From a virus: a DNA stretch of 36,983 nucleotides. Below the pieces are notes generated by a model. The model saw only the letters and a list, made by a program, of their open reading frames with translations. It did no database searches and was not told the origin of the DNA. Both the position numbers and the translations under genes were made by a program. The stretch lies in IMG/VR virus record IMGVR_UViG_3300037193_001772, positions 1 to 36,983 of that record; one strand, 5' to 3'. The number at the start of each line of letters is the position of its first letter. Position 1 is the stretch's first letter. This document shows, one piece after another, positions 1-36,983 of the stretch.

Positions 1-111
1 CGTCGACCAGGATCGACAGCATCCCGGCGTAGGTGGGCCAGTGACGCACGTACGCGGTCTGCACGCTGCCGTGGTGGTGGTAGTCGTGCGTCAGGTCGGG
101 GATGCGCTCGA
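1..111. repeat. Terminal direct repeat, left copy
   Basis: These 111 bases recur without a mismatch at 36756-36866; the two copies diverge at the next base (112 against 36867). The reading frame of the leftward gene here continues in frame into the bases preceding the right copy. The repeat is therefore most simply the overlap left when a circular genome was written as a linear contig, not two biological copies. Confidence 0.93.
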
Positions 112-9224: not shown

Positions 9225-10502
9225 TCAGGCCTCCCCGGTGAGTGCCTTGTAGGCGTTGGTGTTCTGCCGGGCCGCGTCCAGGCGCGTGTACGCCGTGTAC
9301 TCGACCTCGGCGTTGGCCGCCCGGGTCCACGGGTTGACCACGACGACGACATCGCGGACCCGGCGCACCACGTAGCCCTCGCGCAGGTCGCCGAACACAC
9401 CCCAGTTGATGGTGTTGCTGGCGGCGGTCATGGTGGGGAACGCCTGGTCGATGACGACCGGGTAGTCAAGCAGGACCGGCCGCGCGTTCGCCGGCTGGCC
9501 GTCGGCGCCGGTCGCGATCGTGGCGTCACGCGGACGCCAGATCGGGTCGTCGTTCGAGTCCTTCAGCTTGCGGATGGTCGCCCACATGGTGTCGTTGAAA
9601 CCCCACGAGCAGTTGCCCAGCTCGCGGTAGGCAGGGTCCACCGAGTGGATGAAGTTGATCAGGTCGTCGTAGGTGACGCCGGCGGTGTCGGCGGCGATCT
9701 CGACGCCGGTCAGGCCGTGGGCGATGCCCTGCGGCTGCTGCACCCCGTTGCCGTTCACCATGTGGGCCGCGGACGCGCGGGCGAGCCGGGTGCCCAGCCA
9801 CTGCGCGACCTTGCCCTCCAGGTCGAACGCCGAGTCCTGCAGGAGCTGGACACTGAGCCGGAGCGGGGTCACCGACCCGCCACCGGTCATGTACATGTAC
9901 GCACCGAGGTTCGCCGACCCGAAGACCAGGTCCGCCTGGGCGCTGTGTGTGCCGCCCTCGGAGACGACCTCGCCGGAGTTGGCGGTGTCGTCGATGGTGG
10001 GCCATTGGATGACCTCGCCGGTCGTGGTGGTGATCTGCTCGGCGGCGGCCTGGATGCCGCCGAACGCCACCATCCGCTCGACCAGCTTCTGCCGGAAGCC
10101 GGGCGGCACCGTGTAGCCGCCGGCCGGGCCGGTGCCCTCACCCTGCGCCCGCAGGTGGGTGATGTCCTGGTTCTCCCGCCCGCTGCGCAGGTAGGCGCCG
10201 AACGCGCGCTCCAGGGTGTCGTCGGCCCGGGGCGTGACCTGGATCATGCCCATGAGGCCGGCGTTGACCGGGGCGACCCGCTCGACATGCCGACCCGCCA
10301 GGGCGTCCTGGCGCCGGCGCTTGACGAGCCGGCGCTCCAGATCCTCGGCGCGCGCCATCTCGTCGTCGGTCAGGTCGCGACCCTCGCCGACGGCCTCATC
10401 CAGGATGGCCTGGATCGCCGCGGCCAGTTCCTCGACGGTCATCGCCCCGCTCTGCTCCGGCGGGGGTGCCGGCGCCTCGGGCGGCGCCAACGGTGCGGTC
10501 AT
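9225..10502 (-). CDS. Major capsid protein, HK97 family
   Basis: A 425-residue HK97-fold capsid protein with its scaffold-like N-terminal delta domain. Residues about 25-75 are charged coiled coil (ILDEAVGEGRDLTDDEMARAED). The mature shell domain follows from about residue 120 with GGYTVPPGFRQKLVERM, ITTTTGEVIQWPTIDD, VSEGG, a GNGVQQPQGIAHGL loop, and SWGFNDTMWATIRKLKD. The C-terminus (GVFGDLREGYVVRRVRDV, then a YTRLDAARQNTNAYKAL stretch) is very typical. ATG at 10502 has a GGAGGGGAG upstream. The protease gene ends five bases before it. Cleavage of the delta domain during maturation is expected. Confidence 0.95.
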   Translation of the reverse strand: MTAPLAPPEAPAPPPEQSGAMTVEELAAAIQAILDEAVGEGRDLTDDEMARAEDLERRLVKRRRQDALAGRHVERVAPVNAGLMGMIQVTPRADDTLERAFGAYLRSGRENQDITHLRAQGEGTGPAGGYTVPPGFRQKLVERMVAFGGIQAAAEQITTTTGEVIQWPTIDDTANSGEVVSEGGTHSAQADLVFGSANLGAYMYMTGGGSVTPLRLSVQLLQDSAFDLEGKVAQWLGTRLARASAAHMVNGNGVQQPQGIAHGLTGVEIAADTAGVTYDDLINFIHSVDPAYRELGNCSWGFNDTMWATIRKLKDSNDDPIWRPRDATIATGADGQPANARPVLLDYPVVIDQAFPTMTAASNTINWGVFGDLREGYVVRRVRDVVVVVNPWTRAANAEVEYTAYTRLDAARQNTNAYKALTGEA

Positions 10503-10506
10503 GTGC

Positions 10507-11115
10507 CTACTCCCCTCCAGGAGTCGAGCGGATGCGCGCACGCATCCGGATGAGCTGTTCCCGGCGCCGGGTGGCGCCGTTGCTATGGGTGGTGGTGGTC
10601 TGCTCGACGGCCGGCGGTGCGGCGCCCGGCGGCGCTGTGACCGTCTCGACGGCACAGCGCGGGCACGGGTGGACGGCGCCACGGGAGGCCACGAGGGCGG
10701 CCGGATCCATCCCCAGCGGCACGACGCTGGTCTCGACCAGCTCCCACCGGGCCGGCACGCCGAACTCGTTGATGTCGTAGGTGTCGAAGCCGATCGACAC
10801 GGCGTTCAGGTAGCCACCGCGCATCTTGCGTTCGATCGTGACGGCGAACTCGTCGTCCTGGTCGAACTCCGGCTCGATGAACAACTGGGGGCCCTCGACG
10901 ACCGTGCTGACGGCCTTGCCGATCGGCAGGGCGTCGCGGCCCCAGTAGTCGTGCCCGTAGCCGATGATCGGGTTCGAGAGGTAGCGGGCCAGGTCGGCCC
11001 CCTCCATGCGCAGGTCGATGCCGTCGGCCTGGCGGCCCTCGTTGGCGGCGACGATGCGCATCGGCTTGCCGGCCTTACGCTCGACCAGGCCGAGCGAGTA
11101 GACGCGTCGATGCAT
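10507..11115 (-). CDS. Prohead maturation protease
   Basis: A 202-residue HK97-family prohead protease, which removes the capsid delta domain during head maturation. The conserved parts are seen: PIIGYGHDYWGRDALPIGKA with the likely catalytic His55, GGYLNAVSIGF with the likely Ser107, and WELVETSVVPLGMDPAA with a probable acidic partner at Glu128. A C-terminal tail from about residue 145 is Pro/Thr-rich and contains CPRC, not part of the catalytic fold. The ATG at 11115 shares one base with the stop of the small gene upstream. The capsid gene follows directly, as usual. Confidence 0.92.
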   Translation of the reverse strand: MHRRVYSLGLVERKAGKPMRIVAANEGRQADGIDLRMEGADLARYLSNPIIGYGHDYWGRDALPIGKAVSTVVEGPQLFIEPEFDQDDEFAVTIERKMRGGYLNAVSIGFDTYDINEFGVPARWELVETSVVPLGMDPAALVASRGAVHPCPRCAVETVTAPPGAAPPAVEQTTTTHSNGATRRREQLIRMRARIRSTPGGE

Positions 11116-11285
11116 CAGCGGTCCCTCCCGGGCTGGCGGATCTGGCGGTCACGCGGCGGGCGCCGGGTGGCCCGGGCGGCGTCGCGCCGCTCGGCGCGGT
11201 TCATCGCTGCCCACTTCTCAGGTGAGATGCCGAGCGCCTGGCGGATCTGCTCCCACTGCTGCGCGGTCTCGGTGCTCTGGTTCAT
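11115..11285 (-). CDS. Small helical protein between portal and protease
   Basis: A 56-residue, highly charged protein (ETAQQWEQIRQALGISPEKW, then RAERRDAARATRRPP). The ATG overlaps the portal stop by four bases and its stop overlaps the protease start by one, so it is fully embedded in the head operon. The basic C-terminus could bind DNA or act in head assembly. I do not recognise the family and the role is unknown. Tight coupling on both sides is the main evidence that it is real. Confidence 0.68.
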   Translation of the reverse strand: MNQSTETAQQWEQIRQALGISPEKWAAMNRAERRDAARATRRPPRDRQIRQPGRDR

Positions 11286-13144
11286 GCCGCTGCCATCTCC
11301 ATCGCGGTCAGGGCAACGTCGGTCGCCTCGTCGGCGAACACCACGCGGATGCGGTCGAAGACGATCGGCCCGACCCGGTCCACCAGCGCGGCGAGCTGCT
11401 CGACGTCGGCGGTGTACTGGAGGGTCACGTGCGGGACCCACGGCGCGTGCTGGTCGGGCAGGGCCTGCGCGCAGGCCTCGGCCCAGACGGACACCGCGGC
11501 GGCGACGGCCGAGTGGATGGTGTCGAGGCCCGGGCCGGTTGCGCCGAGGACGACGCACGGCTCAGGGCCTGCCGGGTTGAACATCGACACGGCGAAGCCG
11601 TCGACCTCGAGCGGCCCGTGCGCGGCCGCGATCGCGGCGACCTGGTCGACGAGCAACGCCCGCGCCTCGGCCGGGATGGCCGCGGCCTCGCCGAGGTACT
11701 GGAGTGTCAGGTGCAGCTGGTCGACGGGCTCGCCACCGTCGACGGCGAGGCGGGCGGCGTCGGCCTCGGAAGGCAGCAGCGCGACCATGGCACCGGTGTG
11801 AGCCGCCGTGTCGGCGCGACCATTGGTGACCGGCGGGCCCGCCGAAGCGTTGAGCGCCTGCACGTCCGCTGGCGACAGCGACGGCGGGACGACCTGGGCG
11901 AGCTGGCCTTCGATGATGATCGGCTGACCGCCGATGCGCAGCACGTCACCGCCCGGCAGCGGCGGCATGTTCTGCCGGTGCCGCGCCTCGTTGATCGTCA
12001 GCAGGCCGGCCTGGACCTGCTGGATGAGCAGCCCGATCTCGGCCTCCGGCGTCGGCCGCTCCAGCCCGGCGAAGTCGAACTCGACCCACTGGGGTCGCGG
12101 CAGCAGCCGCGACAGGGCCTCCTCGATGCGGATGGTCCAGGGCAGCAGCACGGTGCGGCCCATGGCCCGGTTCTGCGACTCGACGCCCTGGCCCCAGCTC
12201 GTCTGCTTCTCGGTCTGCATGAGCAGGTGCGGCGGCACCCCGAACCAGCGGGCGATCTCCTCGATCTGGAATTGGCGGGACTGGATGAACTGCAGGTCGT
12301 CGGCGGACATGGTCCACGGCTTGAAGTCCATGCGCCGGTTGACCACGGCGATCTCGGAGGCGTTCTCCCAACCGCCGGCGTTACGGGTCACCTCAGCCTT
12401 GATGATCTTCGCCTCGTCAGCGTCGACGTCCTCACCCTCGGCCGGCACCAGCACACCGGAGATCAGCGCGCCGGAGTTGAACATCTTCGCCGCGGCCCGG
12501 TCGCCGGCGATCGCCGTACCGAGACTGTTACGGGCGATGGCGATCGGGGACAGGCCGCGCAGCCCGTCGAGCGACAGGTACGAGATCTGCGTCATCGACC
12601 GGGCGTCGAACCGCATGGTCGCCCCGTCACACAGCGTGGCGGTGTAGACCTTCGGCCCGACCACCTCGCCGGACTCGCGCTCCTGCTTCGTCGACCAGCG
12701 CACCGCGACCGCCAACGGGTGGATGGCCTCCAGGGACACCAGCGCGCCGATCGCGTTCTGCACGTGGGCGAGGAACGCATCACCGTGCAGCACCAGGTGG
12801 CAGAGCATCGTCTCTTTCCACCCGAACGGGGTGGGCCCGTACCGGCCGCCCGGATCGTCGAGGAACGACCTGATCTGCATCCGACCGACGTCGGTCTCGC
12901 GGATCGTGTTCATCGGCAGCGACGCGACCGTGCCGGCGATCAGGGCGACCGCCCGGAACACGGCGGACAGCGTCAGCGCGGTGCTCTCGGTGACCTCGAC
13001 GCCGGAGTAGTTCGGCGCCCACGCCGAGGCGAACAACTCGGCCAGGCGCGGGTCGGAGATTGAGTACGCGCCGGAGCGTTCGACGCGCCTCCGGAGCCAC
13101 GACCGCCACCACCGCACGCGCAGATCATATGCTGACATGCGCAT
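11282..13144 (-). CDS. Portal protein with C-terminal 2H phosphoesterase domain
   Basis: A 620-residue protein. Residues 1 to about 410 are an HK97-type portal: TESTALTLSAVFRAVALIAGTVASLP, FLDDPGG.YGPTPFGWKE, DGLRGLSPI, then a SWGQGVESQNRAMGR stretch and a long C-terminal helix. After a linker, residues about 445-620 form a 2H phosphoesterase (2'-5' RNA ligase/LigT-like) domain with the two expected motifs, HLTL at 478-481 and HVTL at 572-575, 94 residues apart. Family members hydrolyse or join 2',3' or 2'-5' phosphodiester bonds, including cyclic nucleotide signals. I see no stop or frame break between the halves. ATG at 13144 or 13138 is possible; neither has a Shine-Dalgarno sequence, so the mRNA may be leaderless. 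Confidence 0.88.
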   Translation of the reverse strand: MRMSAYDLRVRWWRSWLRRRVERSGAYSISDPRLAELFASAWAPNYSGVEVTESTALTLSAVFRAVALIAGTVASLPMNTIRETDVGRMQIRSFLDDPGGRYGPTPFGWKETMLCHLVLHGDAFLAHVQNAIGALVSLEAIHPLAVAVRWSTKQERESGEVVGPKVYTATLCDGATMRFDARSMTQISYLSLDGLRGLSPIAIARNSLGTAIAGDRAAAKMFNSGALISGVLVPAEGEDVDADEAKIIKAEVTRNAGGWENASEIAVVNRRMDFKPWTMSADDLQFIQSRQFQIEEIARWFGVPPHLLMQTEKQTSWGQGVESQNRAMGRTVLLPWTIRIEEALSRLLPRPQWVEFDFAGLERPTPEAEIGLLIQQVQAGLLTINEARHRQNMPPLPGGDVLRIGGQPIIIEGQLAQVVPPSLSPADVQALNASAGPPVTNGRADTAAHTGAMVALLPSEADAARLAVDGGEPVDQLHLTLQYLGEAAAIPAEARALLVDQVAAIAAAHGPLEVDGFAVSMFNPAGPEPCVVLGATGPGLDTIHSAVAAAVSVWAEACAQALPDQHAPWVPHVTLQYTADVEQLAALVDRVGPIVFDRIRVVFADEATDVALTAMEMAAA

Positions 13145-13160
13145 GGGTACATAACATGTT
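13125..13160. promoter_or_regulatory. Divergent start region of head operon and terminase genes
   Basis: Only eleven bases separate the portal start (13144) and the small terminase start (13156). Both genes lack a Shine-Dalgarno sequence here. The palindrome CATGCGCATG at 13136-13145 contains both candidate portal ATGs. The stretch is notably AT-richer than its surroundings (CATATG, ACATAACATG). Late promoters for both directions must lie inside the neighbouring coding sequences, and leaderless translation is possible. I cannot point to clear -35 and -10 boxes. Confidence 0.4.
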
Positions 13161-13593
13161 GGACGTGGACCCGCAACCCGAGACGCCTGGCGCGATGCGC
13201 GCCGCCGTCGAGGCGGCCCTGGCCGGCCGCGTCGGGTCGGTCGACCCGCGCGACGCCGGCGTCGAACAGCTCGCCCAGCACTACGCCCAGCTCGTCGACG
13301 ACGCCGAGCCGGCCGCGAAGTACACCAAGCCGCTCCGGCTGATCGCCACGGCGTGCGCCGGCGCCCAGGACCCGGAGGCCGGGCTCGCGTTCGACACGAT
13401 CCGCGCCGCCCTGGCCGCGCACAGCGTGGCGTCCGACCTCGGCCCGAAACTGCTCGCCGCCCTCGACGCGCTCGGGCTGACCCCCAAGGCCCGAGCCGCC
13501 GGCGGGAAGGGGGACAGCGGTGACAAGCCGACCAGACTTGCCAACCCGCTCGACCGGCTCCGCGCCGAGCACGCGACCCGCCGCGCCGGATGA
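13156..13593 (+). CDS. Terminase small subunit
   Basis: A 145-residue protein beginning MLDVDPQPETPGAMRAAVE. The helical core (VEQLAQHYAQLVDDA, LRLIATACAGAQDP, then an AALAAHSVASDLGPKLLAAL stretch) matches the small terminase type of actinophages. This subunit recognises the packaging site and hands DNA to the large subunit. The end is basic (TPKARAAGGKG, LRAEHATRRAG). Its last 74 bases overlap the large subunit gene in another frame. An ATG nine codons upstream (13129) is possible but would overlap the portal start. The gene reads away from the head operon, an unusual arrangement. Confidence 0.78.
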   Translation: MLDVDPQPETPGAMRAAVEAALAGRVGSVDPRDAGVEQLAQHYAQLVDDAEPAAKYTKPLRLIATACAGAQDPEAGLAFDTIRAALAAHSVASDLGPKLLAALDALGLTPKARAAGGKGDSGDKPTRLANPLDRLRAEHATRRAG

Positions 13594-15076
13594 GGCCCTC
13601 GGCGTCACCGTCCCCAGGCTGTGGACGCCGCCGCTCGTCGAGCTGACCCGCGAGACGTCCTACGGCTTCGGGGTCATCGACTTCGCCCGCGACGTCGTCG
13701 GCACCCCGCTCGACCCATGGGAGGAATGGAGCGTCATCCACGCCGGCGAACTGCTGCCCGACGGCCGGCCCCGGTTCCGCACCGTGCTGATCATCGTCGC
13801 CCGGCAGAACGGCAAGACGCTGCTCGCCAAGGTGCTGATCATGTACTGGCTGTTCGTCGAGCGGGTGACGTTCATCCTCGGCACCTCGACGGACCGCAGC
13901 TACGCCAAACGCACCTGGACCCAGGTGTGCAAGCAGGTCCAAGGCAACGAGCTGATGGCCGAGCACCTCGGCCCCGGCGCCATCCGGCTGGTCATCAGCG
14001 AGGAAGCGCTCACCACCCTCGACGGCGCCGAATACGGGTTCGCCGCCAACAACTCCCGCGCCGGCCGGTCGACCACCCTCGACCGGTGGGTGTGCGACGA
14101 GCTGCGCGAGCACCGCACCTGGGACGCGTGGAACGCCGCCACCAACGCGATGAACGCCGTGCCCGGCGCGCAGACCGTGTGCATCACCAACCAGGGCGAC
14201 GACAGCGCCATTGTCCTCGACTCGTTGCGCGAGGCGGCGATCGAGTACATCGAGACCGGCGCGGGCGACCCGCGCCTCGGGCTCATCGAATACTCCGCGC
14301 CGGCCGGCTCCGACCCGACCGACCTCGCCGCCCTGGCCCAGGCCAACCCGAACCTCGGCCGGCGCATCGACGCCGACGGCCTGCTCGGCGCCGCCGTCCG
14401 CGCCAAGCGTGCCGGCGGCCTGGAGCTGGCCGGCTTCCGCACCGAGGTCATGTGCATGCGCGTCGCGCACTTCGACGCCGCCATCGACCCCGACCTGTGG
14501 GCCAACGCCGGCGTCGATGCGGCCGAGGCGCCCGACCTCGCCGAGCACCGGCAGCACGTCGCGCTGTGCCTCGACGTGTCGATGGCCGGCGACCACGCCA
14601 CCCTCGCCGCGGCGGCCGTCATCGACGGCGTCACGTGGATCGAGGTCGTCGCCGCGTGGGACGGATTCGGCTGCACCAGACAGCTACGCGCCGACCTGCC
14701 CGGCATCGTCGCCCGCGTCCGCCCGCGCGTGCTCGGCTGGTTCCCCGCCGGGCCCGCGGCGGTGCTGACCGCCGACATGATGGAGCGCCGCCGCGCCGGC
14801 TGGCCGCCCCGCCGGGTCAAGCTGGAGGAACTGCGCACCGAGGCCGCCGCCGTGTGCATGGGGTTCGCCGAGCACGTCGCCTCCGGCAGCCTGCGGCACA
14901 CCCGCGACCCCCTGGCCGACGCCCACGTCGCCGCCTCGGCCAAGCTTCGACGGGGCGACGTGTGGGTATTCGGCCGCCGCGGCGCCGGCCCGGTCGACTG
15001 CACGTACGCGGAGGCCGGCGCCGTCCACCTCGCGCGCACCCTGCCGCCCCTGCCGCCGCCGTTGTCGGTGGTCTGA
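13520..15076 (+). CDS. Terminase large subunit
   Basis: A 518-residue packaging motor. GTG at 13520 follows AGGGGG by about seven bases. The ATPase part has the Walker A variant ARQNGKT at 94-100, a Walker B with acidic pair VCDE at 191-194, and VFILGTS-like strand VTFILGT. The nuclease part begins around residue 345 with LCLDVSMAGDHATLAAA, Asp352 being a likely metal ligand. DGLL, GFRTEVMCM and the C-terminal LADAHVAAS are common in actinophage terminases. With the HNH protein encoded next to it on the other strand, it would cut and package the genome. Confidence 0.93.
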   Translation: MTSRPDLPTRSTGSAPSTRPAAPDEALGVTVPRLWTPPLVELTRETSYGFGVIDFARDVVGTPLDPWEEWSVIHAGELLPDGRPRFRTVLIIVARQNGKTLLAKVLIMYWLFVERVTFILGTSTDRSYAKRTWTQVCKQVQGNELMAEHLGPGAIRLVISEEALTTLDGAEYGFAANNSRAGRSTTLDRWVCDELREHRTWDAWNAATNAMNAVPGAQTVCITNQGDDSAIVLDSLREAAIEYIETGAGDPRLGLIEYSAPAGSDPTDLAALAQANPNLGRRIDADGLLGAAVRAKRAGGLELAGFRTEVMCMRVAHFDAAIDPDLWANAGVDAAEAPDLAEHRQHVALCLDVSMAGDHATLAAAAVIDGVTWIEVVAAWDGFGCTRQLRADLPGIVARVRPRVLGWFPAGPAAVLTADMMERRRAGWPPRRVKLEELRTEAAAVCMGFAEHVASGSLRHTRDPLADAHVAASAKLRRGDVWVFGRRGAGPVDCTYAEAGAVHLARTLPPLPPPLSVV

Positions 15077-20401: not shown

Positions 20402-20608
20402 GTCTGCTCCCGGTACCAGGCGAGCGCCCGGGTGAGCGCGGCCCGGTGGGCGCGTGCCCCCGTCGGGCCGGTGCCGCTGGCGGTAGGCGACCGACACGTC
20501 GGCGCGCAGGTCCTCGGGCAGCGCGCGCCAGCAGCCGCGGCAGGCGAGCTGGTGCAGCGGCACGCTCTTGACGCAGCTACCGCCGGGGCATTCGTGGCGG
20601 GCGCTCAC
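20398..20608 (-). pseudogene. Small Cys-rich phage protein gene with one-base frameshift
   Basis: GTG at 20608 overlaps the WhiB-like gene stop by four bases and encodes VSARHECPGGSCVKSVPLHQ, then ACRGCWRALPEDLRADVSVAYR and RQRHRPDG. At a run of five C on the plus strand (20457-20461) the frame changes. With one C fewer it would continue ARAHRAALTRALAWYREQT and stop at 20398, giving a four-base overlap with the next gene exactly as elsewhere in the operon. The total length is 70 codons plus one base. Either a sequencing or assembly error or a real inactivating insertion. The family (CPGG..C, ACRGCW, LAWYRE) is a common actinophage protein of unknown function. Confidence 0.72.
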
Positions 20609-21186
20609 CGGGCGCCCCACTTGAAGGTGCGTCGCATCGCTTCGGACAGGCTGATCTCGCCGTCCTCGACCGCGACCAGCGTCGCCGCGTCGGCCAGGCG
20701 CACGAACCGGGCCAGAGCCCGGACCGTGTCCGGCTTCAACTGGAAGGTCTCGGCGATGACCTTGGTATTACCGCCGGCGGCGCAGCGGCGTCCGGCGGCC
20801 ACCGACAGCCGGGCCCGTTCCACATTGCTGGCGCCGGCGCGCACCGTCACGCGCGGCGCCGTCACCGGTGCCCGTTCCTTGTCGCCGGCGTACGGGATGG
20901 TTTTGCCGGTGGTGCGGAACTGCCAGCCGCCGGCGACCATGCCGCGTGGCCGGTCGGCGAGTGCCTCGTCGAGGCATTCCTTGCGGACGGGGCAGCGGCC
21001 GCAGATGGAGATCGCCGCGTTGGCCGCGGCGGGGTTGCCGTTGTCGAGGTTCCACCACTCGGGGTCGACGCGGACGCCGTCGATCTCGCGTTGTCCGCAC
21101 AGTGCCTGATCGCGCCAGTTGGCGGACTGGTTGCCGAGGCCGTGGGTGCGGCCGGTGGTGGGGATGAGCTGTCGCAGGCCGGCCAT
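20605..21186 (-). CDS. WhiB-like transcription factor
   Basis: A 193-residue WhiB-family protein. WRDQALC (Cys30), ICGRCPVRKEC (Cys62, Cys65, Cys71) and a following GMVAGGW turn give the four Cys of the iron-sulfur cluster and the G[VI]W[GA]G-like motif. WhiB proteins bind sigma factor and control development, redox response and cell division in actinobacteria; phage versions (for example in TM4) interfere with host WhiB2. The C-terminal part, about residues 120-193, contains a helix-turn-helix-like stretch (TKVIAETFQLKPDTVRALARF), an unusual extension. It shares one base with the upstream stop. Confidence 0.88.
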   Translation of the reverse strand: MAGLRQLIPTTGRTHGLGNQSANWRDQALCGQREIDGVRVDPEWWNLDNGNPAAANAAISICGRCPVRKECLDEALADRPRGMVAGGWQFRTTGKTIPYAGDKERAPVTAPRVTVRAGASNVERARLSVAAGRRCAAGGNTKVIAETFQLKPDTVRALARFVRLADAATLVAVEDGEISLSEAMRRTFKWGAR

Positions 21187-36397: not shown

Positions 36398-36866
36398 GGC
36401 CCGCCCAGGGCGGCCCCGGCGGCCGTCAGCCTCTCCTGCAACCCGGCGATCTGCGCCTGCAACGCCAGCACGGTGGCCGACTCCTTCGCCGCGACCTCGT
36501 CGATGCGGGCCAGGATCGGCGCCGCGTCGACGTTGCCGCCGCCGGCGTTGACCACCGCGACCAGGCCCTCGACGGTCGTTTTCAGCGCGGCGTCCCGGAC
36601 CACCTCGGCGGCCGCGGCCGCCTCGAGCCGCCTGTTGGAGTTGATCAGGTCGATCAGCCAGGGCCGGATCTCCCACTGGATCGTCTCTGCTGCGGAAGCC
36701 AACTCGTCCTCCTGTAGGTAGCGGCTGCGCCCGGCCTGCCACACCGCGAGCGGCTCGTCGACCAGGATCGACAGCATCCCGGCGTAGGTGGGCCAGTGAC
36801 GCACGTACGCGGTCTGCACGCTGCCGTGGTGGTGGTAGTCGTGCGTCAGGTCGGGGATGCGCTCGA
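36394..36866 (-). CDS. Putative peptidoglycan hydrolase-like late protein, C-terminal part
   Basis: This is the rest of the 287-residue protein whose start is at 502; bases 36756-36866 are the duplicated overlap. The non-duplicated part codes EPLAVWQAGRSRYLQEDELA, then IQWEIRPWLIDLINSNRRLE, a coiled coil, and an Ala/Gly end. The frame runs on into the foreign tail of the contig, so the gene cannot be read in one piece here. An internal GTG at 36819 is not needed. C-terminal coiled coils of this sort may mediate oligomerisation or wall binding. Confidence 0.65.
36756..36866. repeat. Terminal direct repeat, right copy
   Basis: Exact copy of bases 1-111. The sequence before it completes the gene that is interrupted at base 1, and the sequence after it is unrelated to the phage. 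Removing one copy and the tail gives a 36,755-bp circle. Confidence 0.93.
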
Positions 36867-36983
36867 GGCTTCATGATATCGGATATGTGGAAGGTGAGGA
36901 AAATCACGAACTCAAGGCTGCGGAAAAAGCAAAGGCAATGCTTGCGGAATGGGGAGCAACACCTAAAAAAATATCGGAAATAA
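36867..36983 (+). other. Foreign tail with fragment of an HD-domain gene
   Basis: GC content drops sharply to about 42%. From 36869 one frame is open to the end and encodes LHDIGYVEGEENHE, then KAAEKAKAMLAEWG and TPKKISEI, typical of HD phosphohydrolases with the HDIG metal motif. No start or stop is included. Codon use (AAA, GAA, ATA) is unlike the phage. It is most likely from another, low-GC organism in the same sample, joined by assembly error. Confidence 0.8.

Follow-up and report, generated by a model that had tools for sequence, protein, structure and literature searches.

The portal protein encoded by the virus studied here carries a second domain, a 2H phosphoesterase, at its C-terminus. 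The DNA analysed, referred to below as the window, is a stretch of 36,983 nucleotides (IMG/VR record IMGVR_UViG_3300037193_001772), in which a single minus-strand gene specifies both parts of the protein. The occurrence of a portal and a 2H domain in one protein, as reported in an earlier note on this DNA, is confirmed, and the wider interpretation given there is partly supported. We favour, with somewhat more belief than doubt, the explanation that this is a normal HK97-type portal whose fused domain would be a virion-carried enzyme acting on a nucleotide signal or on RNA. The relevant features, in window positions, are:

11282-13144, minus strand: portal-2H fusion gene P0001, 620 amino acids (open frame, coding bias)
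11969-12967, minus strand: HK97-type portal domain, residues 60-392 (PF04860, TIGR01537, PDB 8cez)
11801-11914, minus strand: linker, residues 411-448, with low confidence over most of its length (full-length model)
11300-11800, minus strand: predicted 2H phosphoesterase domain, residues 449-615 (PF13563, AlphaFold model, Foldseek)
11705-11713, minus strand: first HxT motif, H478-L-T480 (His and Thr in 69/69 aligned relatives)
11423-11431, minus strand: second HxT motif, H572-V-T574 (His in 69/69 aligned relatives)
11115-11285, minus strand: 56-amino-acid open reading frame of no family, its start overlapping the stop of the fusion gene (ATGA)
10507-11061, minus strand: head maturation protease (phrog_80, E 4e-9)
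9225-10502, minus strand: major capsid protein (PF05065, E 4e-48)
13150-13593, plus strand: terminase small subunit, transcribed away from the portal gene (PF23931, E 3e-7)
13520-15076, plus strand: terminase large subunit, longest frame (phrog_9, E 3e-61)

The coordinates 11282-13144 previously assigned to the gene stand, and its coding strand is the minus strand, which gives a single frame of 620 codons from 13144 to 11282; on the plus strand, the frame that begins at 11282 is a non-coding shadow. The start is the ATG at 13144 or that at 13138, and no internal start of the gene has a convincing ribosome site. Matches to the portal profile PF04860 and to the 2H profiles PF13563 and PF02834 both fall within this one frame. 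PF04860 (Phage_portal) is covered over its whole length (1-321 of 321) by residues 60-392, with an E-value of 5.3e-65, and TIGR01537 (portal_HK97) is matched at E 1.4e-49, scoring 169 bits against a cut-off of 112. In addition, the HK97 portal structure 8cez is matched by sequence (E 5e-37) and by the fold of the full-length model (Foldseek, E 1e-21). The full profile, the portal fold and a neighbourhood of terminase, portal, protease and capsid genes are those of an HK97-type portal. In the linker that follows, residues 412-423 and 434-449 are modelled with a pLDDT below 50.

Residues 463-591 match PF13563 (2'-5' RNA ligase superfamily, E 3.5e-10) and PF02834 (LigT, E 3.9e-7), both above the curated cut-offs, and the 2H assignment is therefore well beyond chance. 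The earlier note had staked its reading on the predicted fold of this region. An AlphaFold model of residues 440-620, based on an alignment of 69 relatives, has a pLDDT of 94 and a pTM of 0.88 and bears out the 2H fold; its Foldseek neighbours in the PDB are LigT/ThpR-like proteins, Usb1, CPDase and Acb1, none of which is clearly closest. The paired motifs noticed previously are both intact, HLT at residues 478-480 and HVT at 572-574, with HLTL beginning at 11713 and HVTL at 11431. The two HxT/S motifs and the internally duplicated fold that characterize the superfamily are thus found by motifs, Pfam, model and Foldseek together. Conservation of the first motif among the relatives is not independent evidence, since they were searched for with a pattern that included it. 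At the second Thr position, the 69 relatives have Thr in 58 cases, Cys in 9, Ala in 1 and Ser in 1. Cys occupies this catalytic position in L005, L009, L053, L059, L069, L070, L078, L079, L084, L085 and L089, and Ala in L003, mainly in 2H versions linked to MuF or protease domains; activity could be lower in such relatives.

The terminase genes lie on the strand opposite to the portal gene, as they do in the relatives L128, L131, L133-L136, L139 and L140, and a search of the record for a MuF gene gave none. An exact direct repeat of 111 bases (window 1-111, identical to 36756-36866) implies that the unit is circular, with 36,755 bases, and suggests that the record is complete or nearly so. The last 117 bases (36867-36983) are AT-rich, unlike the rest of the genome, and are apparently a chimeric assembly tail.

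The nearest portals, L128-L140, are 46-63% identical to that of the window and mostly agree with it in capsid type and in having the divergent terminase. None of them has a 2H domain. The complete ones end at or just past the position of residue 410, and L132 has a longer, unrelated tail; no 2H reading frame was found in the fetched flanks of 80 portal loci either. The domain was thus added to an intact portal. A second portal-2H fusion, L073, is the sole one among the best 80 of 473 viral contigs that encode a related 2H domain. It matches PF04860 with an E-value of 1.3e-33, and its 2H domain spans residues 464-617, numbered along the frame from stop to stop; a terminase gene precedes the fusion, and an S78 protease and a capsid gene follow it. 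The L073 domain scores just under the PF13563 cut-off, yet it is recognised by the subfamily search; used alone as a query, it found only itself. In a tree of 105 2H domains, many inner branches of which are weak, the two portal fusions stand apart and the starred branches force two origins. The L073 fusion is on another portal lineage and independent of that in the window.

Members of the 2H subfamily recur among head proteins. In the same best 80 of the 473 contigs, the carriers are MuF-2H-protease polyproteins, 2H-protease proteins and separate reading frames between the portal or MuF genes and the capsid gene. Head genes with a domain of this subfamily are also present in the Streptomyces phages YDN12 and TurkishDelight and the Gordonia phage Barsten, and stand-alone versions exist in Mycobacterium and Gordonia phages. 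At 29 loci in actinobacterial genomes the carrier is a MuF protein, a protease or unassigned, with no portal-2H fusion among them. In L014 (5680-9834), a frame of 1385 amino acids near a capsid gene combines the 2H domain with a C-terminal ADP-ribosyltransferase exoenzyme domain. Restriction to proteins of the head interior or the DNA gate, in the company of other effector-like domains, is the pattern expected of enzymes carried in virions. Two further frames were observed in this set: one of 1806 amino acids in L040 (4030-9447), in which a 2H domain occurs together with a Mu-like prohead protease and the catalytic core of a topoisomerase IB, and a MuF frame in L010 (41-2653) that adjoins a 2H frame and whose C-terminus weakly matches a PI3/PI4-kinase-like domain.

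Fusions of 2H domains to MuF or portal domains have been described and were proposed to act as RNases or to degrade 2'-5' oligoadenylate or nucleotides used in defence (Iyer et al., 2017, PMC5512222); a later study restated these fusions and proposed packaging and injection against nucleotide signalling (Iyer et al., 2022, PMC9503650). Both the class of portal-2H fusions and the idea of a packaged and injected enzyme are already published, and the window protein, which has the 2H-portal architecture of these effectors, is a clear new case. By analogy, the same logic may apply to it, the enzyme being placed in the head and then injected. The accessible portions of the two papers contain no example to which this record, its portal lineage or L073 could be traced. 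What the present comparison adds is that the portal fusion is an addition not common to the nearest portals, that it arose at least twice and that the subfamily moves among head proteins.

Among characterized phages, the 'capsid maturation protease and MuF-like fusion protein' of the Streptomyces phages YDN12 and TP1604 (Woodruffvirus) contains a 2H domain of the same subfamily, about 43% identical. Its gene lies between those for portal and capsid, and the domain is joined to a MuF and protease region while the portal is separate, unlike the fusion in the window. The Streptomyces phages TG1, phiC31 and phiBT1 have HK97-type portals 33-36% identical (approximately) to that of the window and the same order of portal, protease and capsid genes, but their portals lack a 2H domain; the TG1 portal has 459 amino acids, and that of RemusLoopin 447. 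Acb1, a characterized 2H anti-CBASS enzyme with base-stacking aromatic residues and an adenine-contacting Glu (PMC9117128), has the fold and HxT/HxT tetrad of the window domain, but is a free protein. Membership of the Acb1 family (PF23474) is not supported for the window domain, which this profile does not match at an E-value of 0.01. The LigT/ThpR RNA 2',3'-cyclic phosphodiesterases likewise have the 2H fold and motifs; assignment to that equivalog was rejected, the domain scoring 20 bits with TIGR02258 against a cut-off of 65.7.

Judging from its sequence, the window fusion is probably a virion-borne enzyme. A portal ring contains about twelve subunits per virion, and the ring would anchor about twelve copies of the 2H domain, which the flexible linker would tether within the head. 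The enzyme would act without metal on a phosphodiester substrate of the 2'-OH type, either in a cell that has just been infected or late in infection, in the cell that produces the portal. The most likely substrate would be host RNA or a nucleotide that signals defence. The proteins with which the domain is associated would be in keeping with its delivery alongside the DNA and with a role against defence signals or at RNA ends. A point against delivery is that the portal is required as part of the ring and, to our knowledge, has not been reported to be ejected, so that the fused domain may stay behind unless it is cleaved. The existence of stand-alone 2H relatives outside fusions also counts against a virion-carried enzyme.

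The modelled domain resembles Acb1 no more than it does LigT or Usb1, the substrate is not readable from the sequence, and two kinds of catalytic activity have to be weighed. A more specific form of the favoured explanation, to be entertained tentatively, is an Acb1-like anti-defence enzyme that would cleave cyclic oligonucleotides or related signals (CBASS, type III CRISPR or 2'-5' oligoadenylate-like). Foldseek matches to Acb1 (7t26/7t27) and other viral signal-degrading 2H enzymes point this way, as do weak matches of 18 of the 69 relatives to PF23474 (best 3.9e-6), and association with the head would give early delivery; the same proposal was made in PMC5512222 and PMC9503650. However, the window domain itself lacks that profile match, and Acb1 is equalled or outscored by LigT-like proteins and Usb1. 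These best structural matches, together with the Pfam LigT and 2'-5' RNA ligase hits and the RNase role allowed by PMC5512222, would suit an enzyme that processes the ends of host or phage RNA or cleaves such RNA, as a LigT-like 2',3'-cyclic phosphodiesterase or a Usb1-like RNase, a reading that we consider doubtful. Indeed, RNA ligase, RtcB and KptA were looked for in the record and none was found, so a full repair pathway, rejected for want of these partners, is not encoded, and 2H versions of this kind are reported never to be associated with RNA ligases (PMC5512222). Action on a nucleotide signal or on host RNA is accordingly likelier than a part in a complete repair pathway, and RNA repair is the weaker option on the gene content.

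Catalysis may instead be dispensable, the domain helping portal or prohead assembly or contacting DNA. Such a structural role would agree with the usual position of 2H domains in head genes adjoining portal, MuF or protease and with the loss of the second Thr in some relatives, but it is improbable given the invariance of the second His, the closest portals that manage without the domain and, again, the stand-alone relatives. That the fusion is an assembly artefact, a chimera of portal and unrelated 2H gene, is hardly credible. The foreign-looking tail of the contig shows that a chimeric join probably exists elsewhere in the record; however, a single phage group accounts for the matches on both sides of the fusion, those of the terminase and portal as well as that of the capsid gene, so that two joining events, one in frame, would be required. 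Furthermore, reading frame and GC3 (0.94 in the portal half and 0.94 in the 2H half) are continuous across the junction, and L073 provides an independent second fusion. Returning to the virion-carried enzyme, its boldest form would have a distinct 2H subfamily on the portal ring, about twelve copies per virion, destroy a nucleotide alarm signal as the DNA enters, with the cassette swapped among portal, MuF and head-protease carriers; we regard this as unlikely in its entirety.

If the 2H domain is active in virions, it would allow a direct test of the idea that phage DNA enters the cell together with enzymes that degrade signals. That idea came from genome comparisons published in 2017 (PMC5512222) and 2022 (PMC9503650), and our literature search met no published experiment on it. 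The window portal and its domain-free close relatives form a clean contrast, suited to a simple comparison with and without the domain. As to the host, a gene for a WhiB-like transcription factor at window positions 20605-21186 points to an actinobacterium.
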